32,436 nucleotides of DNA from Bacteroidaceae bacterium (GTDB lineage: Bacteria; Bacteroidota; Bacteroidia; Bacteroidales; Bacteroidaceae). The stretch is taken from the NCBI GenBank assembly GCA_024697285.1, contig JAILFY010000139.1, positions 1-32,436 on the forward strand. Reading direction: 5' to 3'. The translations under genes and the position numbers were made by a program. The notes beneath the pieces are model-generated. The model saw only the letters and a program-made list of their open reading frames with translations. It made no database searches and was not told the origin of the DNA. Numbering within the stretch: position 1 is the stretch's first letter; each line of letters starts with the position of its first letter. This document shows, piece after piece, positions 4,780-32,423 of the stretch.

Positions 4780-4876
4780 ACATTATTTAATAAGGTGTGG
4801 CCCGACATTCTAAAAGGTGTGGCACGACATTATATAATAAGGTGTGGCCCGACATTATTTAATAAGGTGTGGCCCG
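4780..4876. repeat. Four tandem 25-bp repeats upstream of the TPM gene
   Basis: Four contiguous copies lie at 4780-4804, 4805-4826 (shortened to 22 bp, two changes), 4827-4851 and 4852-4876. Each is an AT-rich part (ACATTATTTAATAA) followed by GGTGTGGCCCG. The array lies between the aroE stop and the TPM start, about 57 bases upstream of the latter, so it could be read as tandem protein-binding sites or as a minisatellite. The remaining bases up to 4951 show no gene. Confidence 0.85.
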
Positions 4877-4951
4877 ACAAGGTTCTTCGCCCGAGGAGCA
4901 GATGAGGTTGGTTCTTGGTCTCTCGGGCAGAGAAGAGCGCCCCATCCGCCC

Positions 4952-7609: not shown

Positions 7610-7741
7610 CGCGTCGGCAGGAGGGCAGACCTGTCCGGCTTGTTGTGCCGCGTCGGCAGGAGGGCAGACCTGTCTGGCTTGTTGTGCCGCGTCGGCAGAA
7701 GGGCAGACGAGTTAGGTTCGTTGTGCCGTGTCGGCCTGTAA
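7610..7741. repeat. 39-bp tandem repeat array running into the 3' end of phoH
   Basis: Copies start at 7610, 7649 and 7688, each 39 bp, built on CGCGTCGGCAG, AGGGCAGAC and TTGTTGTGC. The first two differ at one visible position. A truncated fourth copy (CGTGTCGGCC, 7727-7736) lies inside the phoH coding sequence, and the phoH stop codon (7712-7714) lies inside the third copy. The array fills most of the gap between phoH and purC. Confidence 0.88.
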
Positions 7742-9693: not shown

Positions 9694-10084
9694 GTGCGAG
9701 AGGAAAAGAGGGGAGACGGAGCGGAAGGGAAACAGAGAGGGAGGTTGCAGCGACGCTGCAACGTACAGAACGAAAGTAATAGGGGAGGGAGAACATGATT
9801 AATGGGGAAAGGATGTGGTATCTGGGGAGGAATGGGCGGCAGTATGAAGAGAAGGAGAATATGATTAATGGGGAAAGGATGTGGTATTTGGGGAGGAATG
9901 GGCGGAATTATGGGGGGATTGTTGGGACTTTTGAGGTTCTTTCGGGGGAAAATGGCCTTTTTATTTGTTAAGGAATCTAAATTCTTTCTACACCTTTAAA
10001 CCTTTTTCTGTATGTAATGTCATAGGATTGTGATCACACAAAAAAAACACATATTCTAACAATCCTCAAAAAACACATTCAGAA
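9694..10084. repeat. Intergenic region with a 66-bp duplication and a short palindrome
   Basis: No gene is seen. At about 9743-9761 GTTGCAGCG, A, CGCTGCAAC forms a perfect palindrome. Around 9785-9850 and 9851-9916 a 66-bp unit containing ATGATTAATGGGGAAAGG and GGGGAGGAATGGGCGG is repeated with few changes. The last 120 bases are AT-rich and presumably hold the promoter of the Spy-like gene. TTTG at 9964-9967 is present, but I cannot place a good -7 box with confidence. Confidence 0.7.
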
Positions 10085-10788: not shown

Positions 10789-10826
10789 AAGGAGACCGCA
10801 GCCCGTGAGGGTAGCGGTCTCTTTCT
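10789..10826 (+). terminator. Rho-independent terminator
   Basis: GAGACCGC (10792-10799) pairs with GCGGTCTC (10814-10821), extended by a few A-T pairs outside. Inside, GCCC and GGGT close a GTGA tetraloop. The stem is followed by TTTCTTC. It lies about 190 bases downstream of the Spy-like gene and is the best terminator candidate for it or for a short RNA. Confidence 0.85.
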
Positions 10827-10997
10827 TCATGGTTGTCGGTGTCCTTTATCAAACCTCGATAACCTTGATTTCCTAATCAGGTAACGTTCCCTTTCTTCTC
10901 GGTTGTCGGTATCCTTTATCCAATCTCGAGAACTTTGATTTCCCAAAACAGGTAGCGGTCTCTTTCTTCATGGTTGTTGGTATTCTTTATCCCTTTC
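10811..10997. repeat. 70-71-bp tandem array that copies the terminator's 3' arm
   Basis: Copies start at 10811, 10881 and 10952 (the last partial). Each starts with GTAGCGGTCTCTTTCTTC or a variant and continues through GGTTGTCGGTGTCCTTTATC and TTGATTTCC. The first copy begins inside the 3' arm of the terminator at 10789-10826, so the arm and T tract are repeated twice more without their pairing partner. Confidence 0.85.
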
Positions 10998-13566: not shown

Positions 13567-15015
13567 ATGAGACGATTCCTTACGCACCTCTTTCTGGCGA
13601 CAATTCTCGCCACGGTTTCTGGCTCGCCGCTGAGTGCACAATCCGTGGACCTCGCCACCTACTACTCCGCTGCCAACGGCAAGAAAGGCGCTCAGCTGAA
13701 GACCGCTCTATATGAGATTATCACCAACCACACCGTCATCAGCTACGACGGACTCCACGACGCCTATAAGACTTCTGATTGCCGGCCCGATGGCAAGTTG
13801 CGCGATTGGTACTCCAACGTCACCAACTACACCATCGGCACCGACAAGGCAGGCAGTTATACCGAAGAGGGAGACTGCTACAACCGCGAACACAGCGTGC
13901 CGCAGAGCTGGTTCAGCAAGGCTTCGCCCATGAAGAGCGATCTCGTTCATGTTGTGCCCACCGATGGCTATGTCAACAACCGCCGCAGCAGCTATCCCTT
14001 CGGCGAGACCAATGGAGAAGTATATCGTTCCGCTAATTCCTACAGCAAGTTGGGTGCTTGCACCACCAGCGGTTACACAGGTCTGGTCTTCGAACCCAAC
14101 GATGAGGTGAAGGGCGACTTCGCACGTATCTATTTCTATATGGTCACCTGCTACGAGAACCGCATCAGCAGTTGGAACGGCGGCACCGCCTCGCAGGTCT
14201 TCGACGGCAAGACATATCCGGGCCTGCGCGACTGGACCCTGAAAATGTTTCTGCGCTGGGCCAAAGAGGACCCCGTGGACGATACGGAACGTGCTCGCAA
14301 CGAAGCTGTGTATAAGTTGCAGAAGAACCGCAACCCCTATGTAGATTATCCTTCGCTCTGTGACTACGTCTGGGGCGACAGCATCAGCAATGCCTTCCAG
14401 GCGAGTGGGGGAGGGGGCACGGACCCGGTGGATCCCGTTGATCCTGTGGACCCCGTGGACCCTGTTGACCCCGAGGACCCCGAAGAACCGGTGTCTGGGG
14501 CCATTGACCTCACCAAACTTACATGGGTGTCCGATACTCATCCCACCTATGGACAAGGCTTCACCGCCACGACCAACGGCCTCACCCTGAGCTACTATAA
14601 AGACCAGTCTTCCGTGGAACCCAAAGCCGTGGGTACGGAACTGCGCTTCTACGACGGGTCCGTCTTCCTGATTTCAGGCGCCGAGGTGCAACGAGTGGTG
14701 TTCCACGACGCGGGCGGTTCCAAGAGCGGTTGCGCCATCATCATCGACGGAAAAGAATATTCCTTCCAGGATGGTAAGATAAGCTGGAGTGGCTCCATGA
14801 ATCCGTTCATCTGCAGAGCCAGCCTGCAATCCCGCTTCGCCTCCATAGATATCACGATATCTCAGCCCGACGGCGTCTCCAGTCCGTCTGATGTGCCTTC
14901 CTTTCGGTGCGTCTTCGACGAGCAAGGCCGCTATCTGGGTCATAGTGTGCCTCCTCGTCGTGGTGTTTATCTGGTTCGCAAGGGCGAGAAAACGGAGAAA
15001 GTGATTATCCGCTAA
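13567..15015 (+). CDS. Secreted endonuclease I family nuclease
   Basis: A 482-residue secreted nuclease. A signal peptide (residues 1-24, ending PLSA) is followed by an endonuclease I domain (about 28-280) with the catalytic segment CYNREHSVPQSWF (His109 as general base, Glu108 as likely metal ligand) and DLVHVVPTDGYVNNRR, which supplies the conserved asparagine. A linker of Pro-Val-Asp repeats (about 286-307), encoded by 12-bp DNA repeats, leads to a C-terminal beta-rich region (about 312-440). The tail GRYLGHSVPPRRGVYLVRKG is reminiscent of type IX sorting tails. It presumably degrades extracellular DNA. The clear promoter and terminator around it make it the first gene of a unit that may read into truA (18 bases downstream). 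Confidence 0.9.
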   Translation: MRRFLTHLFLATILATVSGSPLSAQSVDLATYYSAANGKKGAQLKTALYEIITNHTVISYDGLHDAYKTSDCRPDGKLRDWYSNVTNYTIGTDKAGSYTEEGDCYNREHSVPQSWFSKASPMKSDLVHVVPTDGYVNNRRSSYPFGETNGEVYRSANSYSKLGACTTSGYTGLVFEPNDEVKGDFARIYFYMVTCYENRISSWNGGTASQVFDGKTYPGLRDWTLKMFLRWAKEDPVDDTERARNEAVYKLQKNRNPYVDYPSLCDYVWGDSISNAFQASGGGGTDPVDPVDPVDPVDPVDPEDPEEPVSGAIDLTKLTWVSDTHPTYGQGFTATTNGLTLSYYKDQSSVEPKAVGTELRFYDGSVFLISGAEVQRVVFHDAGGSKSGCAIIIDGKEYSFQDGKISWSGSMNPFICRASLQSRFASIDITISQPDGVSSPSDVPSFRCVFDEQGRYLGHSVPPRRGVYLVRKGEKTEKVIIR

Positions 15016-18580: not shown

Positions 18581-18689
18581 AGTGCATCCTTTGGACTCGG
18601 TAAGATGTAAAAGATGATAAAAGATTCCAAAAAGCGGTGAGGGACGTTTATTTTTACAACTTTTGATATGTTTTTACTTAGGTTTTTAC

Positions 18690-18697
18690 TACCTTTG
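18690..18697 (+). promoter_or_regulatory. -7 box upstream of the GT2 gene
   Basis: TACCTTTG followed by CACCC is a consensus -7 box 25 bases upstream of the ATG at 18723. TTTG at 18662-18665 is 24 bases away, further than usual for a -33 element. Confidence 0.65.
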
Positions 18698-18722
18698 CAC
18701 CCGTTTTAGCGTAAAACCCTTC

Positions 18723-19532
18723 ATGCAACAAGACCTTGTCTCCATCATCATGCCCACCTTCAATGCTGCTCAGCACGTGGCTGACAGCATCGAAAGCATT
18801 CTTGCCCAGACCTATCAGAACTGGGAACTGCTGCTTATCGATGATTGTTCGTCCGACGACACGCAGCAGATCCTGGAACACTATGCACAGCAAGATTCGC
18901 GACTGAGAGTCTTTGTGCAAGAAGGTAATATGGGAGCTGGTCACACCCGCAACAAGGGAATAGAGAATGCCCGAGGAAGATATATCGCTTTCTGCGACAG
19001 CGACGACCGTTGGTTGCCCGAGAAGTTGGAGCTGCAGATAACTTTTATGCAGCAGAACAACTACGCCTTCACCTTCACCAGCTACTATACCTGCGATGAA
19101 GAGGGAACCACCAATGGCATCATTCTTGCTCCCGAACGTCTGACGCTCTTTCAGCTCAAGTGCGACGACAAGATAGGCTTTCTCACGGCCGTCTATGATA
19201 CCGCTCGCTGTCCCAAGTTCCTGATGCCCCTGCAGCGCAAGCGCCAGGACTACGCTTATGTGCTGATGATTCAGCAGCAGGTGGGCGACTCCCACGCCTT
19301 GCGTCAGCCCCTGGCCATCTATCGTCAGCGCTCCAACAGCATTTCCCATAACAAATGGTCCTTGGTGAAATACAACGCAGCCGTCTATCGCAACGTCTTC
19401 GGTTACTCCACTCTTCAGTCCTACGCCTTCCTCTTTGTCTTCTTCCTTCCCACCTATTTCGTCAAGCGCGTCACCAACATCATCAACCGTCGTCGCCTCC
19501 GTTCCCAGTGGGAAAACTTTACTCTTTCCTGA
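18723..19532 (+). CDS. Glycosyltransferase family 2
   Basis: A 269-residue GT-A-fold transferase, probably acting at the inner face of the membrane in surface polysaccharide synthesis. It starts DLVSIIMPTFNAAQHV, has LLIDDCSSDDT (Asp40-Asp41 for nucleotide binding), GAGHTRNKGIENARGRYIA, and the metal-binding CDSDDRWLPEK with DSD at 92-94. A hydrophobic stretch near the C-terminus (YAFLFVFFLPTYFV) may attach it to the membrane. Donor and acceptor are unknown. The frame extends 20 codons upstream through the promoter box, so the start is the ATG at 18723. Convergent with the GT4 gene at 19852. Confidence 0.93.
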   Translation: MQQDLVSIIMPTFNAAQHVADSIESILAQTYQNWELLLIDDCSSDDTQQILEHYAQQDSRLRVFVQEGNMGAGHTRNKGIENARGRYIAFCDSDDRWLPEKLELQITFMQQNNYAFTFTSYYTCDEEGTTNGIILAPERLTLFQLKCDDKIGFLTAVYDTARCPKFLMPLQRKRQDYAYVLMIQQQVGDSHALRQPLAIYRQRSNSISHNKWSLVKYNAAVYRNVFGYSTLQSYAFLFVFFLPTYFVKRVTNIINRRRLRSQWENFTLS

Positions 19533-19851
19533 TTCCTTCCTGTCGGACATCCAGTCCTTTATATTGACGCACGCGCTCCAGAAAAAGCTCTTGCGGTCGC
19601 CTCTTCTTGCACTTGCAGATAATCAAGTACTCCTTTTTTTTCTTTCGCAGATTATCCGGTAGTCCCTTCCTTCCTTCCGCAGATTATCCGGTAGTCCTAT
19701 TGTCCTTTCGCAGATTATCCGATAGTCCCTTTCAGCCCTCGGTGCACTTCTGCTTCAGGTGCATCCTATACCTATTTATATAAGTATCCCCACTCAGATT
19801 CATTTCATCAGAAGAATTACCTCTCAGATTTATTCATCAGAAACCTCCTCT
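19533..19851. repeat. Convergent intergenic region with a 32-bp tandem array
   Basis: Four contiguous units with anchors at 19615, 19647, 19679 and 19710 (period 31-32) contain GCAGATTATCCGGTAGTCC; the first copy is diverged. A further degraded copy may start directly after the GT2 stop (CCTTCCTGTCGGACATCCAG). Beyond 19760 the phrase CTCAGATT...CATCAGAA occurs twice. There are no spacers, so this is not a CRISPR array. No clear rho-independent terminator is seen on either strand. Confidence 0.75.
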
Positions 19852-20985
19852 TCAGAAAGGAGCTTCGTATAATTCCATGGTGAGCCGTGCAATGCGCTCC
19901 CATCCGTAGTATTTCTGTACCCGGTTCCACATCTCTTTGTCCTCCTTCTTCTGTTGGACTTCCTCTGGGTGCGAGGAAAGGTGGAGGAGGAGCGAGCGGA
20001 GTTGGGAAGCGGAGTCGGGAGGAAGCGTCCATCCTATGGGAGCTATTTCGAATGGTTCGGTGAGACCGCCCACTTCCGTGGCGAGCACGGGAACGCCCTC
20101 GGCGATGGCCGTAAGGAGAACGCCGCTCTGCGATATCTCGCGGTAGGGAAGAAGATAGACATCTGTGTGGCTGAGCAGGAAGTAGAACTCGTCGTCGGGG
20201 ATGAGTCGGTCTTCGATAATCACGTTGTCAATTCCTTTTGCGGCCGAGAGGTCAGCGCCCTTGTTTTTCCCCACGAAGAGGAGCTTGAGTTCGGGGTTGT
20301 CGCGCAGGGCTGGTGTGCTGGCCCACACCTCTGCCAGGAGGTCTACACCTTTGTAGGGATACTGATAGCCGAGAGCGGAGAAAACCATGCGCCCGGAGAG
20401 GCCGTAGCGGCGTTCGTAGTCGTCGGAGTTCTGCCGAAGAGCGGCTGGGTCGTGCTCCATCTGAAGCACTCCGTGGCTGATGACCACCACCTTCTGCAGC
20501 GGGATATCGGGGAAGGTGTCGTGGAACTCGCTCTGGGTCGCCTTGGCATGGACGATGATATGGTCGGTCAGCTGGTACCATCTACGATAGCTCTTCAGAT
20601 AGCGGGTGCCTGTGTCGTGGGGGAGAATATTGTGGGCAGTGAAGACAACTTTGCAGCCAGTGAGGCGCTTGATGAGTCCGAAGAAGAAGATATCGAAAGC
20701 AGGCAACCGAAGCCATTGGACGTGGATGGTGCGGGGGCGCAAGCGGAGGATGAGGCAAAAGATACGAAGATAGGAAAGAAGATAGCTGAAGGCCTTGGAC
20801 CAGTTGTGGCGCAACTCATTATAGCGGAAGAGCGGATGAAAATGAATGTGCGACGGCAGCGGCTTGTAGTCATAATGCATCGAGCCCACGTAGTGCACAT
20901 CGGACTGCATGTGAGAGAGAAGGCTATAGTCGTAGATGGCGAGGTTCCTCATGGATTGAGGATTGATATACATAAAGGTTTTCAT
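19852..20985 (-). CDS. Glycosyltransferase family 4
   Basis: A 377-residue GT-B-fold transferase for surface polysaccharide assembly. The N-terminal half has VVFTAHNILPHDTG (AHN 117-119) and HIIVHAKATQSEF. The C-terminal nucleotide-sugar domain has FSALGYQYPYKGVDLL (Lys212), LKLLFVGKN, DVYLLPYREISQSGVLLTA with AEGVPVLATEVGGLTE, the usual E-x7-E region. The start is the ATG at 20985 (MKTFMYINPQSMRNL), 30 codons inside the longest frame, because the upstream part overlaps the preceding gene's end. It lies 25 bases downstream of the WbsX-like gene and is probably cotranscribed with it. Donor and acceptor are unknown. Confidence 0.92.
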   Translation of the reverse strand: MKTFMYINPQSMRNLAIYDYSLLSHMQSDVHYVGSMHYDYKPLPSHIHFHPLFRYNELRHNWSKAFSYLLSYLRIFCLILRLRPRTIHVQWLRLPAFDIFFFGLIKRLTGCKVVFTAHNILPHDTGTRYLKSYRRWYQLTDHIIVHAKATQSEFHDTFPDIPLQKVVVISHGVLQMEHDPAALRQNSDDYERRYGLSGRMVFSALGYQYPYKGVDLLAEVWASTPALRDNPELKLLFVGKNKGADLSAAKGIDNVIIEDRLIPDDEFYFLLSHTDVYLLPYREISQSGVLLTAIAEGVPVLATEVGGLTEPFEIAPIGWTLPPDSASQLRSLLLHLSSHPEEVQQKKEDKEMWNRVQKYYGWERIARLTMELYEAPF

Positions 20986-21010
20986 AGCAGACGGAGAGGG
21001 GAGAGGGGGA

Positions 21011-22156
21011 TTACTGAATAGCATCGCGAATAGCCTGGAGGAAACCGTGTCCGTGGAGCAGGTCGGGCTCCACATAGTTACCCTCCGCCCACTCGTTCCA
21101 GGAGCGCAAAATGAGGATGCGATGGTCGGGTTGTTTCTGTTTGATGACCTCCAGGGCTTGCTCTATATGTTCCCGGAAATGTTCGGGGGTGGCGTTGACG
21201 TAAATGCCGTCTGTCCTGCCGGTGCGTGCGGACCGATCCCATTGTGGCATGATGATGGGGAACACGTTTTCCCAGGTGTCCTCTGGAGCGAAGAAATGTC
21301 TAACCACCTTGGGGTAGTCAAGCTTCAGTGCCGGCAGCCAGGATAGATGATCGCGCAGCAGTCGTTCCGCCACCTTGCGGTATTTCCCCAAGTAGAGCAT
21401 CTCGGCGCGCGCTTTGCCGTTGGAGATGATGCCATCGAACCCCAGGTCCAGGAAAGGCTGGAACACGTCGGCACTGCTCTGGAGATTTGGCATCACACGC
21501 TCCACGGAGCCATCGTCGTGGCGCCGGATAGTACTGGTGTTATTGGTCTGTGCCACGAAATAAATCCCCGGCAGTCCATTTTTCTCTGCCAGCGAGCGCC
21601 ATAGTTGGAGGAAATGTCCCACGTCGGGGATGCGGTAAGGGTCGTAGATGACGAAGAGAGGTCGTCCGTCCACGGTGATGTAGCGGTGGTCGCGGAAGGC
21701 CGGCAGAACATAGTTGAAGTGCAGGATATAATCCTCGTCGCCGAGGTAGCGCTGTTCGGCAATCATCTGTGAGCCGCCCCCGTTCATCCAGGTGCCCGTC
21801 GTCCAGTCGTGGTTGGCCCATGCGAGGCAGAAGGGGAAGTCCGGTTGTCCACTCTTCAGCACCTCCTGAAAAGGGCGCTGAAGCAACATCTTGCCTCCAC
21901 CAAACCAATAGTGCCAATAGCAGAACCCCTCCACTCCCGCCTCCCGAGCGAGTTGCGCCTGTGCCTCTCTCACTTCTGGCATTCTGAGGTCATAGAAACC
22001 AAGGTCCGCGGGAATGCGAGGTTGATGGTGGCCTCTGAAGAGCGGGCGAGCCTTGGCGACGTTCGTCCACTCGGTGAAACCTTTTCCCCACACTGCATCA
22101 TTTTCGGGAATGGGATGAAATTGAGGAAGGTAATATGCGATGACTCTTGCTTTCAT
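21011..22156 (-). CDS. WbsX-like / GH99-like protein of polysaccharide synthesis
   Basis: A 381-residue protein of the WbsX family, found in O-antigen and capsule clusters and related in fold to the GH99 (endo-mannosidase) barrel. Family features are IAYYLPQFHPIPENDAVWG, GFTEWTNVAKARPLF, GVEGFCYWHYWFGGGK, FPFCLAWANHDWT, and the C-terminal RSWNEWAEGNYVEPD. Whether it makes or trims glycosidic bonds is not established. The start is the ATG at 22156 (MKARVIAYYLPQF). The 34 upstream codons lie across a perfect promoter and are rejected. It heads a two-gene unit with the GT4 gene. Confidence 0.9.
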   Translation of the reverse strand: MKARVIAYYLPQFHPIPENDAVWGKGFTEWTNVAKARPLFRGHHQPRIPADLGFYDLRMPEVREAQAQLAREAGVEGFCYWHYWFGGGKMLLQRPFQEVLKSGQPDFPFCLAWANHDWTTGTWMNGGGSQMIAEQRYLGDEDYILHFNYVLPAFRDHRYITVDGRPLFVIYDPYRIPDVGHFLQLWRSLAEKNGLPGIYFVAQTNNTSTIRRHDDGSVERVMPNLQSSADVFQPFLDLGFDGIISNGKARAEMLYLGKYRKVAERLLRDHLSWLPALKLDYPKVVRHFFAPEDTWENVFPIIMPQWDRSARTGRTDGIYVNATPEHFREHIEQALEVIKQKQPDHRILILRSWNEWAEGNYVEPDLLHGHGFLQAIRDAIQ

Positions 22157-22182
22157 TTGCGATACATCTTGTTTTTGCGCCA

Positions 22183-22213
22183 CAAAGTTAGCGCTTTCTT
22201 CTGGAATGGCAAA
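22183..22213 (-). promoter_or_regulatory. Consensus Bacteroidetes promoter of the WbsX-GT4 unit
   Basis: On the minus strand TTTG (22213-22210), a 19-base spacer and TAACTTTG (22190-22183) match the consensus exactly. Transcription would begin near 22176, about 20 bases before the start codon. Confidence 0.85.
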
Positions 22214-22822
22214 AAAAATAGATGGAAAAATCAAGAATAGGAGAAGGTCATAAGCCACAGAGGAATTCTACTTGCCTTTTCCCACGAAAGAATAACCTGT
22301 TTATCACATGTAATCAGCCGAAGGGCCACGGACACTCAAAACAAACCACATGTCCTGTTGACCTGCACCATGTAAACTCCGGTGTAACCCACTCGCTGCT
22401 TGCACCTCGTCTGACACCCTATAGTCCCTCCGTTGTTCGAACATGATGGAACAATTGTTCGAACATGATGGAACAACAAACACAGTGTAATGTATAAAAT
22501 CGCTACGTTCAGAGTCGTTTAATTCAACGCCTAAAGGTCTGAATTAAAGCGCTGGAAGTTATCCAGTTCGGCGCCTAATGGTTCGTGTCTCAGCGCAAGG
22601 AGTTATCACGTTCAGCTGCTAATGGTTCGAGTCTCAGCGCTGGGAGTTATCACTTTTGGTGCCTTTCTTGGTCCGAATCATTCCCATTAAGCTGATAGGT
22701 TCTGAATCATTGGGCTTTTCAATACATATATACGTGTTAGCCGATGCGAATATAGGCGCAAGGATTCAGTCTGTGAAGCTTCAGTTACTTTATACGTTCA
22801 GACTCGGAAAGTGCGACGAGAA
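22214..22822. repeat. Intergenic region with 22-bp and 44-bp tandem arrays
   Basis: No gene is seen in about 600 bases. Bases 22433-22454 and 22455-22476 are two perfect copies of a 22-bp unit starting TTGTTCGAACATGATGG and ending AACAA; it contains the palindrome TGTTCGAACA. From about 22513 a 44-bp unit is repeated (22513, 22557, 22601, partial at 22645), built on AGTTATC, GTTCGGCGCCTAATGGTTCG and CTCAGCGC; copies two and three are close, the first is diverged. Bases 22260-22430 and 22690-22822 show nothing I can name. Confidence 0.8.
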
Positions 22823-23248
22823 TCAGAACTGCCACCACTTCTTGCGGGGCTTCATCTCCACGGCCGAAGGATTCAGTTGCTCCGTAAGCACTTCCTCATA
22901 GGTCTTGTGGTTGTGGATCATGTTATAGATGGTTCCCCAATCAGGCAACCCACCCACATTGCGGTCGTCAATCCAGAGATCGACTTTCAGCTTACGGGAG
23001 AAGTGCATGTTCTTAGACACATCTTCTTCGGGGAAATCGCGGTTCACGGCATAGAACTCCACTCCCCGCTCGCGACACCACTCCACAGCGTCGTCCAACA
23101 ATTGCCCTTCACGCACCGTCCAGAGAATCAGCTGATGTCGTTCCTCTATCAGCATACGTAGTGTTTGGGTGGCGAAGGGTATCTCCTCGCCTATTGCGGG
23201 ATAACGATGACGGACGATGGTTCCGTCGAAATCTACTGCTATTGTCAT
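22823..23248 (-). CDS. HAD-like hydrolase of the BT0820 type
   Basis: A 141-residue cytosolic haloacid-dehalogenase-like protein. The N-terminal VDFDGTIV has the nucleophile and acid aspartates (DFDGT, residues 6-10). LILWTVREG supplies the motif II threonine, and VDLWIDDRNVGGLPDWG the acidic motif. There is no large cap, as in the small BT0820-like hydrolases of Bacteroides. The substrate is unknown. A -7 box precedes it, and its 3' end faces the 44-bp repeats. It is monocistronic as far as can be seen. Confidence 0.88.
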   Translation of the reverse strand: MTIAVDFDGTIVRHRYPAIGEEIPFATQTLRMLIEERHQLILWTVREGQLLDDAVEWCRERGVEFYAVNRDFPEEDVSKNMHFSRKLKVDLWIDDRNVGGLPDWGTIYNMIHNHKTYEEVLTEQLNPSAVEMKPRKKWWQF

Positions 23249-23335: not shown

Positions 23336-23369
23336 TTTGGTTAGATACAAATTATTTTGTGTACTTTTG
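23336..23369 (+). promoter_or_regulatory. Probable promoter of the first giant secreted protein
   Basis: TTTG (23336-23339) and TACTTTTG (23362-23369) followed by CTGCG resemble a Bacteroidetes promoter, though the 22-base spacer is longer than the usual 19-20. If used, it gives a leader of about 285 bases before the start codon at 23661, much longer than the 17-30 bases of other promoters here. Confidence 0.55.
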
Positions 23370-23439: not shown

Positions 23440-23605
23440 CCATCTATCAACTATATATAATAAGGTAAGGATAATCCTCATTTTAGCGTGATTTAAAGAC
23501 TGTCCTCATTTCAGTAGAAAAACTTTTTTAAGGACAATCTTCCTTTCAGAAAAACACTCTATTCAGGACAATCCTCCTTTCAGAAAAAGGACAGATAATC
23601 ATTTA
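23440..23605. repeat. Degenerate repeats in the leader of the first giant protein
   Basis: AGGACAATCCTCCTTTCAGA or a variant occurs at 23531 and 23575, with more diverged copies at about 23468 (AGGATAATCCTCATTTTAG) and 23498 (GACTGTCCTCATTTCAG). Intervals are 30-44 bases. The gap 23249-23660 otherwise contains the two divergent promoters and an AT-rich stretch. Confidence 0.65.
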
Positions 23606-23660: not shown

Positions 23661-26600
23661 ATGAAACAACGTATCCTTTCTCTTCTTGCCATGATCTTCC
23701 TGATGTTGGGAAGCGCAGTGGCACAAACGTGGACGGCCCCCGTTGCTCCCGAAACACCCGATGTGAAGGGTGTGGAACTGGAATCAGGGTCCTCCTATTA
23801 CATTCGCAATGTAGGTGCCGGACAATACATGGTCGGCGCCAATTCCTGGGCCACGCAGATATCAATCAGCGAAACGCCCACACCGAACCTGAAAGTGAAG
23901 CTCACGCAGGTGAACAACTCATGGCTCGAAACCGAAGATCCCAATTATCCCGCACAAGGATGGGAAATGTCGCTGGACGGCGACCATTTCTTCACGGGTG
24001 ACCACAACCGCAAGGACTATAAGGTCCCCAGTGGTAAGAAGCTCTTCCGCGACAGCGATGAAAGCGGTTTCGTGGACCTGGGAAGCCAGAACAGAGGCTT
24101 CATCTGGACTATCACCAAGAATGAGAGCGGCAACTACTTCATCCAGACTATTGCTGGCGACCCCAACTACCCCAATGCCATCGACGAATATGCGGGTGTG
24201 GCTGCAGGCACTGAGCCCGGAGCGCCCGTAGTGATGAACTTGGCGCTGGATACCGAGAACAACTGGATTGAATGGGAATTCATTCCCACAAACCTCTTCT
24301 CCGACTATGATGCCGCCGTTGCTATCTACAAGGCTCGCTTGGTGCTCTATCAGTACCTCGTGGACGCTACCACCTATGGCGCTGACACGGAAGCTGCCGG
24401 AGCCGTATACAACAATGCCGACGCCACCGTAGAAGAGATTAATGCCGCGGCCGAAGCCCTTCGCCCCGAAGTGCGCAAGGCTATCCTCGCCTATGCCAGC
24501 AAGAATGCTACGGCTGAGAACACCATTGACCTCACCAATTATGTCCTCGAGAACCCGGCTTTCGACACCGGCGACCTCTCTGGCTGGACCATCAGCGCCG
24601 GTGGCGGCAACCGCCAGTACCAAGGAGCCTCCTATGAGGATGCTGAAACAGGCGTGAAGATTCAGGGATTCATAGAGACCTGGGTGGCTGCGCCCAACTG
24701 TCTGGCCAACGGCAGCGCCAGCCAGAAGGTGGGTGGACTGCCCGATGGACACTACATCCTGGAATGCGATGGAATGGCCCTGAACCAGACGTCGGAAGAC
24801 AGCGAATACTATGTGGAGAAAGAGGACTATAAAGGTGCATACCTCTTCTATAGTAATGGCGCCATCACCGTGAAGAGCGAACCGCTGGCCAGCAACCGCG
24901 GCGTGAAAGAGAACGAAGAAGGCAATCTCGTAGACACATGGTTGCCCACACACTTCACCTTCGGATTCGATGTCACCGGAGCCGACACCATCAGCGTGGG
25001 CTTCCTGACGGATGATGCAAACATCAACTGGCTGGCTGCCGACAACTGGAAACTCATCGCTGCAGGTGCCGTACAGGCTCCCCCTGCCTACACGGCTCTG
25101 CTCACCGAGGTGGCTGCTGCCGACGCTGTGCTCGCCCAGCGTGACGACGTGGCTGCACAGACGGCCGCTTACGACGCTCTGGCTCAGGCCCTGGAAGAGG
25201 TGACGCCTCTCATCGAGGCTGCCGCCAGCTTCGACAAGGTCGCTGAATACGAGGCTGCATACACGAAGCTGAACGCTGCTCGAGTAGAGGTGCACGCTTC
25301 CATTGAAGCTTACGCCAAGATCGAGGGTTTCATCGACTTGCTGATGGACACCAACGAGCAGTATACTGACAACGAGACCTACAAGCCTCTCTGCGACAAG
25401 CTCGACGAGCTGCTGGAGAAGATGGAGAATGCACAGCAAGAACAGAACCTCTCTGCTGCTGAAATCAACAGCGACATCGACGGATTCGACGAGATGGTCA
25501 AGCAGACGGTGAAGGAGATCTTCGAGAGCATTGCCGCTCAGGGCAAGGAACTCGATAGCCCGCTGGACATCACCTCCCTCTTTGATAACATGAGCTTTGC
25601 CTATGGCACCAGCCAGGTGGCTTTCGCCGGTGGTTATCCAGCTGAGAACCCCGTATGGATGAACGAGACCGGAACAGGCAACTTCAAGACAAACTACAGC
25701 ACTGGAGAGGTATGGAATGTACGTCCTTTCAATATCTACCGCGACTTTGCTGGACTGCCAAAGGGCAAGTATACCATTCAGACCCATGCCTTCTATCGTG
25801 TGGAAGCCAACGCAGCCAACTATGAGAACTACAACGCCGGAGCCTATGAGGGAATGGAATATGCTTACGTCTATGCTGGTTCCAACAAGAGCCCGCTGGT
25901 CAACAATGCAGCTCTCGCTTGCGATATTTTCTCTGGACTTACCTCTCCCTACGACTGCGGTGATGGCAACTACCTGCCCAACAGCCAGCTGAACGCCTAT
26001 GAAATCTTCACGAAGGAGGAATATGCTGAGCAAGCAGAAATGGCACTCGTGGAGGCTTCTTCCGTGGTCACAGAAGACGGTGGCACTCTCAGAGTGGGTA
26101 TTGCTGGAACTGATCAATTGCTGGATAACCAATGGACTATCTGGTACGGATGGAAACTCTTCTACCATGGCGTGTCGTCCTCTGCACTCGCAGAAGAACT
26201 TGCAAAACTGATTGAAGAGGTGAGCATGCTGGATGCCTGGGGCGTTGAGGAAGGCGCTCAGATGATGGATGAGGCTCTCACTGCTGGCGAGAAAGCTCTC
26301 TCTGCTGATGAAGAGGCCATGAACGATGCTATCAGCAAGCTGAAAGCTGTCATCGAATATGTCAAGAAGAGCGAAGAACTCGCCAATATCATCTACAACT
26401 TGCCCATCACCTATCAGGATATGATGGCAGAACTCGCTGATTATCAGTTCACCGATACAGAGTTCACCGCACTCCTGAAGGAAGTGCAAGATGCGAACGC
26501 AAACAGCCAGTACAGCAGTAACGCACAGATAGAGAAGTGGATTGCTGACCTCAAGGCCCTCTGGCCCAACTACATCCTCTCACGTGCTGACCTCGCTGAT

Positions 26601-27395
26601 GCAACTGTCGAGAACCCCGTGGATATGAGCATGTTGATCAGCAACGCCAGCTTCGACAACAACGACAAGAGCGGATGGGATGTCACCTGCGAGTCCAATG
26701 GCGGCAAAGAACGCGAAGGTATCGCTGAGTTCTGGAACTGCAGCGCATGGGACCTCTCGCAGGAACTGCCCAAACTGAAGGATGGATACTGGCGCCTCGA
26801 GTGCGACGCCCTCTTCCGTGCTGGCAATAGCGACGACGAAATCTCAGCCCTTAAGACAAAGCGCGACTCCGTATTGTTCAACGAGGAATATCTCTACGTC
26901 AAGTCCGAGAATATCGACATCGAAACGAAAGTGGTGCAATGGAGCAACACCGAGAAGGGTGCCGTTGTGGACAACGAAGAGAATGCGGCGCTCCTGGAAC
27001 TGTTGTCCGGCAAGACGCTGTATGAAGTTACCTACGACACCGAAACGCTGAACTTCTACTCCGCCAACAACCAGAGTGCCCTTCTGGGCTTCTTCGAGAA
27101 CGGACGCTACCACAATGCCCTCACCTTCTCCTACAGCGAGGCTGAAGGACCCGTGCGCATCGGCCTGAAGTTGAAGGAAGCTTTCACTAACTGCTGGTGC
27201 CCCTTCGACAACTTCAAGCTGAACTATCTTGGCACGGAAGCACCCGTAGGTGTGGAGAACCTCGAAACTGAAAAGACTGCTATGGCGACCTCCGCTATCT
27301 ACGGCGTTGATGGTCGTCGGCAGAACCGACTCTCACGTGGCATAAATATCGTACGCACTGCCGACGGCAAGGTGCGTAAGGTGCTGGTGAAGTAA
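23661..27395 (+). CDS. Giant modular secreted protein A (trefoil-like, three jelly-roll modules, sorting tail)
   Basis: A 1244-residue secreted protein of unknown function. A signal peptide (residues 1-21) and a short Pro-rich stretch (APVAPETP) lead to a beta-trefoil-like domain (about 42-210) starting SYYIRNVGAGQYMVGANSW. Then three rounds of an acidic helical segment plus a jelly-roll, carbohydrate-binding-like module follow. Modules at about 290-468, 635-837 and 986-1191 each open with a phrase like YVLENPAFDTGDLSGW, have a central LPDGHYILECD-like strand and close with a WKL or FKL strand. The last 35 residues (YGVDGRRQN, then GINIVRTADGKVRKVLVK) form a tail shared with protein B, probably a type IX sorting signal. 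A hairpin terminator follows. Likely a cell-surface or matrix adhesin. Confidence 0.82.
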   Translation: MKQRILSLLAMIFLMLGSAVAQTWTAPVAPETPDVKGVELESGSSYYIRNVGAGQYMVGANSWATQISISETPTPNLKVKLTQVNNSWLETEDPNYPAQGWEMSLDGDHFFTGDHNRKDYKVPSGKKLFRDSDESGFVDLGSQNRGFIWTITKNESGNYFIQTIAGDPNYPNAIDEYAGVAAGTEPGAPVVMNLALDTENNWIEWEFIPTNLFSDYDAAVAIYKARLVLYQYLVDATTYGADTEAAGAVYNNADATVEEINAAAEALRPEVRKAILAYASKNATAENTIDLTNYVLENPAFDTGDLSGWTISAGGGNRQYQGASYEDAETGVKIQGFIETWVAAPNCLANGSASQKVGGLPDGHYILECDGMALNQTSEDSEYYVEKEDYKGAYLFYSNGAITVKSEPLASNRGVKENEEGNLVDTWLPTHFTFGFDVTGADTISVGFLTDDANINWLAADNWKLIAAGAVQAPPAYTALLTEVAAADAVLAQRDDVAAQTAAYDALAQALEEVTPLIEAAASFDKVAEYEAAYTKLNAARVEVHASIEAYAKIEGFIDLLMDTNEQYTDNETYKPLCDKLDELLEKMENAQQEQNLSAAEINSDIDGFDEMVKQTVKEIFESIAAQGKELDSPLDITSLFDNMSFAYGTSQVAFAGGYPAENPVWMNETGTGNFKTNYSTGEVWNVRPFNIYRDFAGLPKGKYTIQTHAFYRVEANAANYENYNAGAYEGMEYAYVYAGSNKSPLVNNAALACDIFSGLTSPYDCGDGNYLPNSQLNAYEIFTKEEYAEQAEMALVEASSVVTEDGGTLRVGIAGTDQLLDNQWTIWYGWKLFYHGVSSSALAEELAKLIEEVSMLDAWGVEEGAQMMDEALTAGEKALSADEEAMNDAISKLKAVIEYVKKSEELANIIYNLPITYQDMMAELADYQFTDTEFTALLKEVQDANANSQYSSNAQIEKWIADLKALWPNYILSRADLADATVENPVDMSMLISNASFDNNDKSGWDVTCESNGGKEREGIAEFWNCSAWDLSQELPKLKDGYWRLECDALFRAGNSDDEISALKTKRDSVLFNEEYLYVKSENIDIETKVVQWSNTEKGAVVDNEENAALLELLSGKTLYEVTYDTETLNFYSANNQSALLGFFENGRYHNALTFSYSEAEGPVRIGLKLKEAFTNCWCPFDNFKLNYLGTEAPVGVENLETEKTAMATSAIYGVDGRRQNRLSRGINIVRTADGKVRKVLVK

Positions 27396-27437
27396 GTCCG
27401 GAACCGAGCGCTCCGGCGCTCTATATATAATTAAGGT

Positions 27438-27479
27438 GTAGCGCCACGTCCTCTCCAGCGACGTGGCGCTACTTCTTTT
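27438..27479 (+). terminator. Rho-independent terminator after giant protein A
   Basis: GTAGCGCCACGTC (27438-27450) pairs perfectly with GACGTGGCGCTAC (27460-27472) around a nine-base loop, followed by TTCTTTT. It separates the transcripts of the two giant genes. Confidence 0.9.
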
Positions 27480-27681: not shown

Positions 27682-27689
27682 TACATTTG
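27682..27689 (+). promoter_or_regulatory. -7 box of giant protein B
   Basis: TACATTTG followed by C matches TAnnTTTG. No TTTG is found at the usual distance upstream, so the -33 element is unclear. The predicted leader is about 94 bases. Confidence 0.6.
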
Positions 27690-27789: not shown

Positions 27790-30700
27790 ATGAAACACAA
27801 TTTACTCTCTTTCTTTGCACTTGCAGGTGCAATGTTCATGAGTGCAAGTGTTGCTGCATGGGATGAACCGGTAGCTCCCGTAGCTCCCACCACGGTTCCC
27901 ACGAGGCCCTCTTTCGAAGGCACCTGGGTAGAACCCGAAGATGGCGGCACTTATTATCTCTACAATGTAGGTTCCGGTCAGTTCCTCGGTGCTGGTCAGG
28001 ACTGGGGTACACGCGCTATTGCCACAGCAGAAGCCTGCGTGGCAATAACGGACGACGCCACGACAACACTCACAAAGAACAAGAACTACATCTTCCCCTT
28101 CTTGTTCAGCAAGCCCAGTGATCCCACACTCGACGAATCCCTTCAAGATAAGTGGATGATTCAGATTCAGCAATCCGACCGCACTGATGTGTATCTCTGC
28201 CACGAAGGCAATGCTGCTTGGGTGGATGGTGATCTCAATCGTCGCAACACGGACAACAATGGTTTCTGGGAAATCAGTGCTGTAGACGGTGGTTACGAAC
28301 TCATCCCTCTCGATGGCCAAGAAGGTAATACCATCGTCTATGGTGTTCACCTCACCAACCTGGCCAAGGCTCTCACCGCATACACTTGGACCGACTTGAC
28401 AAACGGCGATGCTACTGTTGCCGGTGTCTGGAAGTTCGTATCTGCTGACGATGCTGAAGCTATCAGAGCTTATGTGACAGAATGTGTAGGAAACACAGAA
28501 CTGACCTCCAGCTTCACTGCATATCAAGAGGAACTTGCTGCCTACAACACTGCTGTGACTCTGTACAATGCTCAGCTGGCTCTGTACAATCAACTTCTGG
28601 AAGCTGACAAATATGGCGTAGATGCTACAGAAGCTGGCGCTGTTTATACCAACGCTGAGTCTACTGTTGCCCAACTGAATGCTGCCACCGCAGCCCTGAA
28701 GGAAGCCATCGCACCTCATGCGCTGGCTGCTCTTATCAAGACTTCCACTGAAGACAATCCCGTTGATATCACCTCTTATGTCCTCAAGAATGCAGACTTC
28801 TCGGAAGCCTGCGATAATGGTAAGACTCCTCCGGGATGGGAAATCACCATCAAAGGTCAGAATGTAGGACAGCAGAACCGAACCGACACCAACTCTGAGA
28901 CTCAAGCTTCTATAACGAACTTCCTCGAGGCTTGGACTCCTCAACCGGGTACCCTCGGTGATGGTTATGCAGGACAATGGCTCACTGGTCTCCCCCAGGG
29001 TCGCTATCGTCTTGAGATGGATGCTACCGCTTGCCAACAGAGTAATCAAATTGCTATTCAAGACCTTACGGGTGTTTGCCTCTTCGTAGGAACTGGTTCC
29101 TATAACATCCAGGGAGATGCTGTTCAGACAGGTGAGAAGATGGTACAACACTACACCTTCGACTTCGACTTCAATGCTGAAAAGTTACTTGTTGGTCTGT
29201 TAGTTGAGAAAACTAATTGTAACTGGATCTCTGCTGACAATTTCAAGCTTTATGCTATTGGAGAAATGAAAGAAGATCCCAACCGTCTGGGTCTCCAGAG
29301 CAATATCGAGAAGGCTGAAAAGGTACAGAACAACATGCCAGTCAACAACATTGAAGACGCTAATATTCTGAACGTCAGCGAAGCTACTCGCACTTACTTC
29401 GAGGCCGCTCTGGAAGCTGCCAACGAAGCTCTCTCTGGTACCAGCGAAGAGATGAAGGCTGCTTCCGAGGCTCTGGCTCTCGCTATCGATTCCGTAAATG
29501 CTGATGCTGCTATCTACGCTGCTTATCAGGCTGTTTACAACCTGGCCAACAGCTATGCCAACAAACTGGATGAAATTGATCAGTGGGAAGATCTGAAGAA
29601 CGATCTCTGGGAATTTGCTGAAGATGAAATCGCTGCAAACTTCAACGATGGTCTCCTCACTGCTGAGGGCCTCGCTGCCGCTCAGGCCAAGCCCGATGAA
29701 CTCATTGCTGCATTCATTGGCGACGGCACCGGTATCGAACCGGGCGACGACCTCACCATCCTCGTTAAGAACGCTGACTTCAGCGAAGGCAGCGGTGCTA
29801 CCAACATTCCTGGTTGGACCATAGCCAGCGGTGCTATCACCGAACTCTCCGCATCTTTCCATAATATCGAAGCTTACCACAAAGCATTTGACTTCCAGCA
29901 GACCATCAAGAACCTGCCTAAGGGTACCTACAATATCTCCGTTCAGGGATTTGTACGTATTGATGGCGGTGTCAACGACATGGTTCTCTATGCCGGTGTT
30001 TCCGACAAGAAGTTCAAGGAGATTACCGATGAGTACAGCGAGTGGGCAATCCTGAGCAATGGCACAGACGAGGAAGGCCATCCCACCAGTACTGGAGCTT
30101 GGCCCTACGACACTCAGGTCTCCAACGGCTATCAGCCCAACTCCATGGAAGGTGCCAAGGCATACTTCGAAACGGAGAACCCCTTGACAGGCAAGCCCTT
30201 CTACCTCAACGAAGTTTCCATCGCCCACACGGGTGGCGACCTCACCATTGGTGTGAAGTGCAGTGCTACCAACCTCTGGATCCTCTGGGATAACTTCACC
30301 CTGACCTTTGTCAGCAGAGAGGCTCTCTCCGGCATCCTCGAAGATATCGACGCTCTGTCTGAACAACTCACAGCCATGCTCGACGAGTATCAGGCTCGCA
30401 CACTTGACACCAATGCCGCTTACGATGCTATCATGGAGCGCGTAGCTGCCAAGGACGAGATCACGACTGAAGAAGATGCTGTTGCACTGCTCAACGATAT
30501 CAAGGCTCTCATCGAGACCATCAAGAGTGACAACACCAAGATTCAGGAGCTCATCGACCTCTGCGACGAGTACAATGGCAAGATCGAGACTGCTGGTATT
30601 GAAATTGGCGAAGAATACATCGCTCTGCTTGACGAGGCCAGCGGAAAGGCTGCCAGCTACGAACTCAAGAATCAGGAGGAAATCGACAACTACATCCAGC

Positions 30701-31425
30701 AAATCAAGGCTGGTTGGATTCCCGCTGTCATGGCTAACGCACAGCCCGGTTCTGACGTAACCATCATCCTGAGCAACCCCGACTTCGAACTCGGCAACAT
30801 GAACTTCTGGACCATCACTCCTGCTGAGGAAGGCGATAAGATTGGTGACAACCAAGGCTTCCAGAACAACAATGTTTACAACAACGCAGAGAATCCTGAA
30901 CTGACCCTGGAGAACTTCGTTGAGGCATGGCGCAGCGCTGCCAGCTTGCACGATGGTACTATCAGCCAGACTATCGCAGTTGCCCTGCCCGCAGGTGCTT
31001 ACAAACTGGGTTGCGTAGGTTATGCTGTCAACCAGAGCGGCAATGGTGGTGTTCCCGAGGCAGGTGTCTCCGGTGGTTACCTCTATGCAAAGGTTGGCGA
31101 GAGTGTCGTTAAACAGTCCATCTGTGTAGACTCTGATACTGCTACCCCCACTCAGTTCGAGGTTGCCTTTATGTCCAACGGCACTGACCTCACCACTGTT
31201 GGTCTGATGGTTCAGGGTGCTAACTTCAACTGGATGGCTGCTGACAACTTCACGTTGACCTACCTCGGCAAAGATGCTCCCGATGCAGTTCAGAACCTGA
31301 ACAGCAAGGCTGCTGCCACTTCCACCATCTTCACAATCGATGGCCGTCAGTCCAACGTCCTGCGTCGCGGCATCAACATCGTTCGCATGAGCGATGGCAG
31401 CGTTCGCAAGGTTCTCGTGAAGTAA
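27790..31425 (+). CDS. Giant modular secreted protein B, paralogue of A
   Basis: A 1211-residue secreted protein with the same layout as protein A. It has a signal peptide (about residues 1-22, ending SVAAW), a Pro/Thr stretch, and a beta-trefoil-like domain (about 50-215) opening TYYLYNVGSGQFLGAGQDWG. Three jelly-roll modules (about 325-491, 654-840 and 990-1160) are each preceded by Ala/Glu-rich helices. They open YVLKNADFSE, LVKNADFSEG and ILSNPDFELGN and close with SADNFKLYAIG, WDNFTLTFV and AADNFTLTYLG. The tail (FTIDGRQSN, then GINIVRMSDGSVRKVLVK) differs from that of A at only a few positions. It has its own promoter and terminator. It is 170 bases upstream of the polysaccharide export lipoprotein gene. 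Function is inferred, not known. Confidence 0.82.
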   Translation: MKHNLLSFFALAGAMFMSASVAAWDEPVAPVAPTTVPTRPSFEGTWVEPEDGGTYYLYNVGSGQFLGAGQDWGTRAIATAEACVAITDDATTTLTKNKNYIFPFLFSKPSDPTLDESLQDKWMIQIQQSDRTDVYLCHEGNAAWVDGDLNRRNTDNNGFWEISAVDGGYELIPLDGQEGNTIVYGVHLTNLAKALTAYTWTDLTNGDATVAGVWKFVSADDAEAIRAYVTECVGNTELTSSFTAYQEELAAYNTAVTLYNAQLALYNQLLEADKYGVDATEAGAVYTNAESTVAQLNAATAALKEAIAPHALAALIKTSTEDNPVDITSYVLKNADFSEACDNGKTPPGWEITIKGQNVGQQNRTDTNSETQASITNFLEAWTPQPGTLGDGYAGQWLTGLPQGRYRLEMDATACQQSNQIAIQDLTGVCLFVGTGSYNIQGDAVQTGEKMVQHYTFDFDFNAEKLLVGLLVEKTNCNWISADNFKLYAIGEMKEDPNRLGLQSNIEKAEKVQNNMPVNNIEDANILNVSEATRTYFEAALEAANEALSGTSEEMKAASEALALAIDSVNADAAIYAAYQAVYNLANSYANKLDEIDQWEDLKNDLWEFAEDEIAANFNDGLLTAEGLAAAQAKPDELIAAFIGDGTGIEPGDDLTILVKNADFSEGSGATNIPGWTIASGAITELSASFHNIEAYHKAFDFQQTIKNLPKGTYNISVQGFVRIDGGVNDMVLYAGVSDKKFKEITDEYSEWAILSNGTDEEGHPTSTGAWPYDTQVSNGYQPNSMEGAKAYFETENPLTGKPFYLNEVSIAHTGGDLTIGVKCSATNLWILWDNFTLTFVSREALSGILEDIDALSEQLTAMLDEYQARTLDTNAAYDAIMERVAAKDEITTEEDAVALLNDIKALIETIKSDNTKIQELIDLCDEYNGKIETAGIEIGEEYIALLDEASGKAASYELKNQEEIDNYIQQIKAGWIPAVMANAQPGSDVTIILSNPDFELGNMNFWTITPAEEGDKIGDNQGFQNNNVYNNAENPELTLENFVEAWRSAASLHDGTISQTIAVALPAGAYKLGCVGYAVNQSGNGGVPEAGVSGGYLYAKVGESVVKQSICVDSDTATPTQFEVAFMSNGTDLTTVGLMVQGANFNWMAADNFTLTYLGKDAPDAVQNLNSKAAATSTIFTIDGRQSNVLRRGINIVRMSDGSVRKVLVK

Positions 31426-31445
31426 AACAGAACTTAAATTCCCCA

Positions 31446-31472
31446 CGTTGAGTCCCAAAAAGCAACTCAACG
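31446..31472 (+). other. Hairpin in the 3' UTR of giant protein B
   Basis: CGTTGAGT (31446-31453) pairs with ACTCAACG (31465-31472) around an 11-base loop, 12 bases upstream of the terminator. It may stabilise the 3' end of the message. There is no T tract, so it is not itself a terminator. Confidence 0.55.
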
Positions 31473-31484
31473 ACACTAAGCAAG

Positions 31485-31512
31485 GCCTGCACAAGTACGT
31501 GCAGGCTTTTTT
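31485..31512 (+). terminator. Rho-independent terminator after giant protein B
   Basis: GCCTGCAC (31485-31492) pairs with GTGCAGGC (31499-31506) around AAGTAC, followed by six T. It lies about 60 bases after the stop codon and insulates protein B from the export lipoprotein gene. Confidence 0.93.
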
Positions 31513-31524
31513 CTTGCAAATTTC

Positions 31525-31556
31525 TTTGGACATTTGTGAAAAAGTACGTACTTTTG
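31525..31556 (+). promoter_or_regulatory. Bacteroidetes-type promoter of the polysaccharide export gene
   Basis: TTTG (31525-31528), 20 bases, then TACTTTTG (31549-31556) followed by CAGGC. The leader to the ATG at 31596 is about 33 bases. Confidence 0.8.
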
Positions 31557-31595
31557 CAGGCAGAAAACAGAAAACATCTAAAAAACAACAACAAC

Positions 31596-32423
31596 ATGAA
31601 GAAGTATTCAACTCTGGCCCTCTTAGCCATCGCCATCCTGTGTCTCTCTTCCTGCGTAAGCTCAAAGAAGATTATCTACTTCCAGGGAAGCGACAGTTTG
31701 TATGCTCAGGCACAAGATATTGTGCAGAAATATGAGATGCGCCTCAAGCCCGCTGACCAGGTGCTCATCAAAGTCACTTGCGACAATCCGGAACTGCTGG
31801 AAATCTTTAATCTCGATGTCACCATGGGTTCTGGTATGCGTGGTGGCGGTAACCTCAGCTATGGTACAACCGGTAGCATGGGTTCTGTCTATGGTTACAC
31901 CGTTGACAACGAAGGTTATCTGGACCTGCCTTCCTTGGGTAAAGTAAAAGTAGGTAATATGACCGTGGACGAAGCAGCAAGAGCCGTGGAGAAGGTTATC
32001 CAATCACGTAATCTCATCAAAGAACCTGAGGTGACGGTACGTCTGCTCAATGCACGTGTAGCCGTTCTCGGAGCTGTGAAGAGTCCGCATGTGGTCAGCC
32101 TCAACTCCGAGCGTAATACTATCCTCGATGTGCTTGCCAGTTGCGGTGATGTCAGCGACCAGGCTCTGCGTCAGAATGTTACACTCTTCCGCGAGAACAA
32201 CGGTAAGCGTGAGATGTTTCACATGGACCTCACACAAGCTGATATCTTCAAGAGTCCTGGCTTCTACGTTCAGCAGAATGACCTCATCTACATTCAGCCT
32301 AACAAGAGCCAAAACGTGAAGAGTTCCGCTTTCTCCACCTTCCTCGGCGTCGGTGGCAGCGTCATCAGCGCACTCGCTTCTATGACTGCTCTGGTCATCT
32401 CTATCGTAAACCTCAGCAAGTAA
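31596..32423 (+). CDS. Polysaccharide export outer-membrane lipoprotein (Wza-like, SLBB domain)
   Basis: A 275-residue lipoprotein of the Wza/BexD family that forms the outer-membrane exit channel for capsule or exopolysaccharide. The signal sequence ends in a lipobox, LSSC, with Cys20. The Poly_export domain (about 45-150) contains RLKPADQVLIKV and YTVDNEGYLDLPSLGKVKVG. An SLBB domain follows (about 153-205, RVAVLGAVKSPHVVSL, ILDVLASCGDVSD), then NDLIYIQP and a C-terminal hydrophobic helix (about 250-272). A Gly/Ser/Met-rich insertion (about 77-98) is unusual in its composition. The start is the ATG at 31596; a start 20 codons upstream would precede the promoter box. It probably opens an operon, but only 13 bases remain in the window. 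Confidence 0.94.
   Translation: MKKYSTLALLAIAILCLSSCVSSKKIIYFQGSDSLYAQAQDIVQKYEMRLKPADQVLIKVTCDNPELLEIFNLDVTMGSGMRGGGNLSYGTTGSMGSVYGYTVDNEGYLDLPSLGKVKVGNMTVDEAARAVEKVIQSRNLIKEPEVTVRLLNARVAVLGAVKSPHVVSLNSERNTILDVLASCGDVSDQALRQNVTLFRENNGKREMFHMDLTQADIFKSPGFYVQQNDLIYIQPNKSQNVKSSAFSTFLGVGGSVISALASMTALVISIVNLSK

Follow-up and report, generated by a model that had tools for sequence, protein, structure and literature searches.

Giant modular proteins with predicted type IX secretion tails in an inherited gene block beside a wza-family export gene of uncultured Bacteroidaceae

The window, by which we mean the whole stretch of 32,436 nucleotides that was analyzed, is an entire contig (G000:C247) of a Bacteroidaceae genome of 2.4 Mb that is 73% complete. 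Three consecutive genes on the + strand occupy its right end: giant A (23661–27395), which encodes 1244 aa, giant B (27790–31425), which encodes 1211 aa, and a gene for a Wza-family outer-membrane polysaccharide export lipoprotein of 275 aa (31596–32423), here called wza, 13 bases beyond the end of which the contig stops. Both giants have the same architecture, composed of a signal peptide, a beta-rich N-terminus, three repeats, and a short T9SS-type tail. To their left lies a small HAD-like gene on the − strand (22823–23248; 141 aa, MTIAVDFDGTIV...), the conserved left neighbor of the giants, for which a Pfam search gave no match. The earlier note on this DNA had counted three further glycan genes within 13 kb upstream, and all three are found there: a GT2 gene (18663–19532, + strand), a GT4 gene (19852–21075, − strand), and a WbsX gene (21011–22258, − strand). 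In relatives, homologs of two of these genes are found past rny, at the far end of the gene block described below: GT2 in G011 and G055, and WbsX in G011.

The product of wza matches the Pfam Poly_export model above the cut-off (E 3.6e-15), has SLBB matches that fall below the curated cut-off, and carries a lipobox (LSSC) read from the sequence, features that together identify it as a Wza polysaccharide export lipoprotein. We set its start at the ATG at 31596, not at the GTG at 31536, because this ATG is where the lipoprotein signal MKKYSTLALLAIAILCLSSC starts and because there is a promoter at 31525–31556; with this start the gap between giant B and wza is exactly 170 bases, the distance previously noted. 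The window gene shares Poly_export, SLBB, and the lipobox with the Wza/Wzc capsule export pair, and relatives have a Wzc-like kinase with a Tyr-rich tail beside wza; however, wza and wzc face each other or lie apart and do not form one operon. A search for a Wzc ortholog in the incomplete window genome returned just a 32% relative.

An E. coli-like sigma-70 promoter scan of the window gave chance numbers only, and the Bacteroidota pattern, TTTG-N16-24-TAnnTTTG, was used instead. The window contains 5 matches to this pattern where 0.4 would be expected; two of the 5 precede giant A (23336–23369, + strand; TTTG...TACTTTTG) and wza (+ strand, 39 nt before the ATG). Terminator-like hairpins follow giant A (about 27433–27477, + strand; fold −28.9 kcal/mol, z −6.8) and giant B (31482–31509, + strand; z −4.2). 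Based on the promoters and the strong hairpins after both giants, giant A, giant B, and wza are probably separate transcripts. The proposal that each gene has its own promoter and terminator thus holds for the promoters of giant A and wza and for the two hairpins; it does not extend to giant B, which has just a −7-like box read by eye (TACATTTG, 27682–27689), or to a terminator of wza, before which the contig ends. Across the genus, a −7 box at most 200 nt from the wza ATG is present in 22/30 giant-bearing and 34/49 giant-free loci, compared with 5.5% of shuffled stretches. The box is absent from the five loci with rfbA between giant and wza, in which wza may be read from rfbA. Tandem repeats with 17/34-base units (23503–23588) lie between the promoter and the ATG of giant A, in what is presumably its 5′ leader.

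By sequence reading, giants A and B have an N-terminal signal peptide, and the C-terminal tail of each follows the pattern DGRQ-x-LRRGINIVR-x-DG-x-KVLVK. In Prevotella intermedia, a class of T9SS cargo has "short" C-terminal domains of about 40–55 residues; these carry motif B, a motif D that is GxY or, in one subgroup, GxN, and a motif E that is basic, and they are predicted to form three strands after a flexible linker (PMC11969387). By pattern match, the signature of motifs B, D, and E occurs in 59/68 giants, 43 of which are of the GxN type. In giant B, motif and AF2 model assign residues 1166–1211 (31285–31422, + strand) to a linker plus a short T9SS-type C-terminal domain of the GxN subgroup, the linker having pLDDT below 50 and being followed by three strands in the model; the end of giant A matches. 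The window genome encodes SprA, PorV, and PorU, and the PorU and PorV genes lie side by side (G000:C74:11177–15776). The giants therefore share with the P. intermedia cargo the signal peptide, motifs B, D (GxN subgroup), and E, the predicted three-strand tail after a linker, and SprA/PorU/PorV; they differ in having much longer modular bodies and in belonging to another genus, and their secretion is predicted. We rejected the long-CTD cargo class for the giants, the Pfam long-tail model Por_Secre_tail (PF18962) having no match to the giant tails at E up to 10; the assignment of the sorting signal therefore rests on the motif and the model. With tails of the T9SS type and T9SS genes in the same genome, the giants are very probably surface proteins, a prediction that bears out the suggestion of such a location. 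In one relative (G043; L070 9849–13325), the giant B reading frame ends without a sorting tail, by either a frameshift or an assembly error.

AF2 models of the giant bodies (mean pLDDT 78 and 85; pTM 0.45) contain a beta-rich N-terminal domain, modeled with low confidence in giant A, and three repeats of a helical bundle plus a CBM-like sandwich, the relative placing of the modules being meaningless at this pTM. The sandwiches of giant B, all on the + strand and delimited from the AF2 model, comprise residues 328–491 (28771–29262), matched to CBMs by Foldseek; residues 677–842 (29818–30315), which module comparison divides into two exchanged types; and residues 1008–1160 (30811–31269), DUF5013-like by profile match. 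In Foldseek searches the sandwiches match CBM families 61, 16, 22, and 4 and a porphyran-binding CBM, with a target-normalized TM of up to 0.71, E of 1e-3 to 1e-6, and 10–18% identity, and they have the CBM-type beta-sandwich fold. The likeness of the three modules to CBM61, CBM16, CBM22, and CBM4 is one of fold; sequence identity is 10–18%, and no catalytic domain is attached. We predict from the modeled fold that the sandwich modules probably bind glycans. Pfam and NCBIfam searches of the giants find no named family except a sub-threshold DUF5013, and a profile search of solved structures with the giants gives few, weak matches. Full-length Cry proteins head the Foldseek matches of the giants and a few other toxins rank lower, all at a global TM of 0.07–0.14; these matches reflect a shared local mix of helical bundles and CBM-like sandwiches, and we do not take them as evidence of a toxin.

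The window's giants have close relatives in uncultured Bacteroidaceae/Prevotellaceae genomes; most of these genomes are from ruminant guts, and one is the MAG UBA4372. This origin, together with the plant- and algal-glycan CBMs among the best fold matches, would suit adhesins for plant fiber or mucin in rumen bacteria, located in a surface-glycan region by chance. Since we see neither an enzyme domain or dockerin nor linkage to polysaccharide-use genes, and specificity cannot be taken from fold, we put this forward as a tentative possibility; it is compatible with the explanation that we favor below and differs from it in the ligand alone.

The earlier note had named conservation of the neighborhood across genomes as the check on whether the adjacency of giants and export gene is accidental. 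We searched 121 genomes of the genus, all MAGs, and read the DNA around 80 wza orthologs (window included) and at a further 20 places where giants lie away from wza. The loci fall into three arrangements. In type I, to which the window is similar, a HAD-like or GNUC gene is followed by one or two giants, sometimes rfbA, and wza, often with wzc (which faces wza), zapA, and rny beyond. Type II consists of wzc, zapA, rny, the HAD-like gene, and wza, with the giant absent, and type III of rny, the HAD-like gene, a diverged giant (GIANTc), and wza. The small HAD-like gene is a marker present in most giant loci, and in giant-free loci it adjoins wza directly. The Wza clade of the window (support 100/99) has a giant just upstream of wza in 26/27 genomes, a second group of the Wza tree has a giant beside wza on the same strand in 5/6, and the giant label changes 4 times on this tree, compared with about 25 times in shuffles. 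The preservation of this order throughout the Wza clade shows that the adjacency is no accident; it is inherited and old, and more than chance. A basal genome (G077; L188 891–12729) has three giants in tandem upstream of wza, including one GIANTc, which may point to an ancient array here. A polysaccharide cluster lies near wza in one type III genome (L104 3–6909) and includes a flippase, a pyruvyl transferase, a second, larger Wza-like protein, and others.

Does this adjacency mean that the giants anchor or organize the exported polymer, as the earlier note went on to suggest? Stated concretely, the giants would act as anchored lectins for the capsule or matrix of the same cell, holding the polymer of the neighboring Wza. 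This reading is favored by the same-strand adjacency in the window's Wza clade (26/27) and the second group (5/6), by the CBM-like modules, and by the retention of the giant-to-wza pair in 29/32 loci, a figure biased upwards by the choice of most loci by wza, which exceeds the 17/27 for wza and wzc, known partners. However, 49/80 wza loci have no upstream giant, and three genomes that lack wza and wzc (G041, G055, G116) still carry the giant at this site, flanked by the HAD-like gene on one side and by rfbA/zapA/rny on the other. Further points against this proposal are that giant pairs are located elsewhere in two genomes (G060, G015), that the left neighbor of the giants is equally conserved (kept in 16/17 loci reaching far enough), that Wza hardly varies where giant B varies most, and that anchoring of the PorU type would lead to an LPS-type glycan and not to the Wza polymer (extrapolating from PMC11969387). 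The suggestion is thus unsupported by the comparison, and we regard a polymer-holding role as unlikely. A search for a giant-specific loop in Wza found none; the pattern caught few rows, and a glycine-rich loop occurs in both kinds of Wza.

The giants and Wza need not act together, because wza has its own promoter and is found without giants across most of the genus. The data leave room for a functional link but are explained by synteny of an inherited block, and they do not necessarily imply joint function; where the other genes of a block are conserved to the same degree, a conserved place beside an export gene counts as weak evidence that the two function jointly. A search of the open-access literature found no report linking T9SS giants with wza. 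In the three loci without wza and wzc (L152, L153, and L154, from G055, G041, and G116, respectively), these two genes appear to have been lost together, and the block is otherwise intact, with giants and rfbA remaining.

Giant B and Wza differ in how they vary. Wza of the window and of G115 are 83% identical, compared with 35% for giant B of the same pair. The giant B proteins closest to that of the window are those of G003 and G088. Relative to the window's giant B, module 2 of L182 is 68% identical and the adjoining modules 23–34%, and in L170 and L175 module 1 is 82–83% and module 2 39–43% identical. The two types of module 2, which were named from module-2 identity and not from the trees tested, form a single branch of the module-2 tree, whereas the trees of module 1, module 3, and the N-terminus require 6 changes each, and forcing the types together in these other trees is rejected (p-AU about 1e-50 or lower). 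Close pairs display the exchange directly. In G003 and G042, Wza is 99% and giant B 48% identical; at the DNA level, there is hardly any alignment over the initial 2.6 kb of giant B, whereas its 3′ end, wza, and the stretch beyond are 81–88% identical. In G115 and G043, Wza is 98% identical, and giant B is 39–51% identical in its first three eighths and 79–93% thereafter, between flanks with about 86% DNA identity; in this pair, just the N-terminal part of giant B was replaced. The best reading of these sequence comparisons is that giant B changes by repeated module exchange between relatives, which would make it a module-exchange hotspot between nearly identical flanks. A mosaic could also arise as an artifact of MAG assembly or of comparing paralogs: all of the genomes are MAGs, and the module trees include three rows for giants that do not lie beside wza (L171, L172, L176). 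However, the close pairs compare the same-site gene between aligned flanks, the conflict is present in three separate module trees, and the type III pair G069/G097 has no such jump (Wza 94%, giant 85%), so that an artifact appears very improbable to us.

We posit that the giants are T9SS cargo, namely diversifying, lectin-like surface proteins in an inherited block beside export genes, a reading to which we assign a probability of roughly 0.7. According to this explanation, the giants would cross the inner membrane by their signal peptide and the outer membrane through SprA with PorV, the genes for which are present. PorU, a sortase whose gene is also present, would then cleave them at the linker and attach them to a surface glycan of the LPS type, a step that we extrapolate from P. 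intermedia and Porphyromonas gingivalis. The protein displayed at the surface would be a string of CBM-like modules on helical spacers that, to judge from the fold, probably binds glycans. Module exchange in giant B would fit an exposed protein under a presumed diversifying pressure, and the site beside wza is inherited as part of a block composed of the small HAD-like gene, the giants, wza, and often wzc, zapA, and rny. A more specific proposal is that giant B is an anchored, module-swapping lectin for the cell's own Wza-exported polymer, with modules that track the polymer type and an adjacency that keeps lectin and export alleles matched; we consider this conjecture quite unlikely.

The process of module exchange is itself already known, for example from P. 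gingivalis, in which the adhesin domains of gingipains and HagA and other surface proteins diversify by domain rearrangement and allelic exchange (PMC5266723). Like the gingipain/HagA proteins, the giants are T9SS-type surface proteins of repeated modules with mosaic variants unrelated to the strain tree; unlike them, the giants have no protease domain, Pfam finds no cleaved adhesin domain match, the exchange in giant B is between species of uncultured rumen bacteria, and the giants form a block with wza. Neither this locus nor this type of protein is described in the papers that we searched. Loci of this kind usually mark what phages, hosts, or neighboring cells recognize. For an uncultured, abundant rumen lineage, large surface proteins are now defined as a class, together with the route by which they likely reach the surface.

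Elsewhere in the window, a gene at 13567–15015 encodes an Endonuclease I family protein with a repeat-rich stretch (14421–14482) and a weak WxL match. Many different short intergenic tandem repeats are present in the window (e.g., 55–170, 4780–4879, 7610–7735, 9788–9912, 10810–10992, 19615–19732, and 22433–22653), at a density that is unusual for a bacterial contig.
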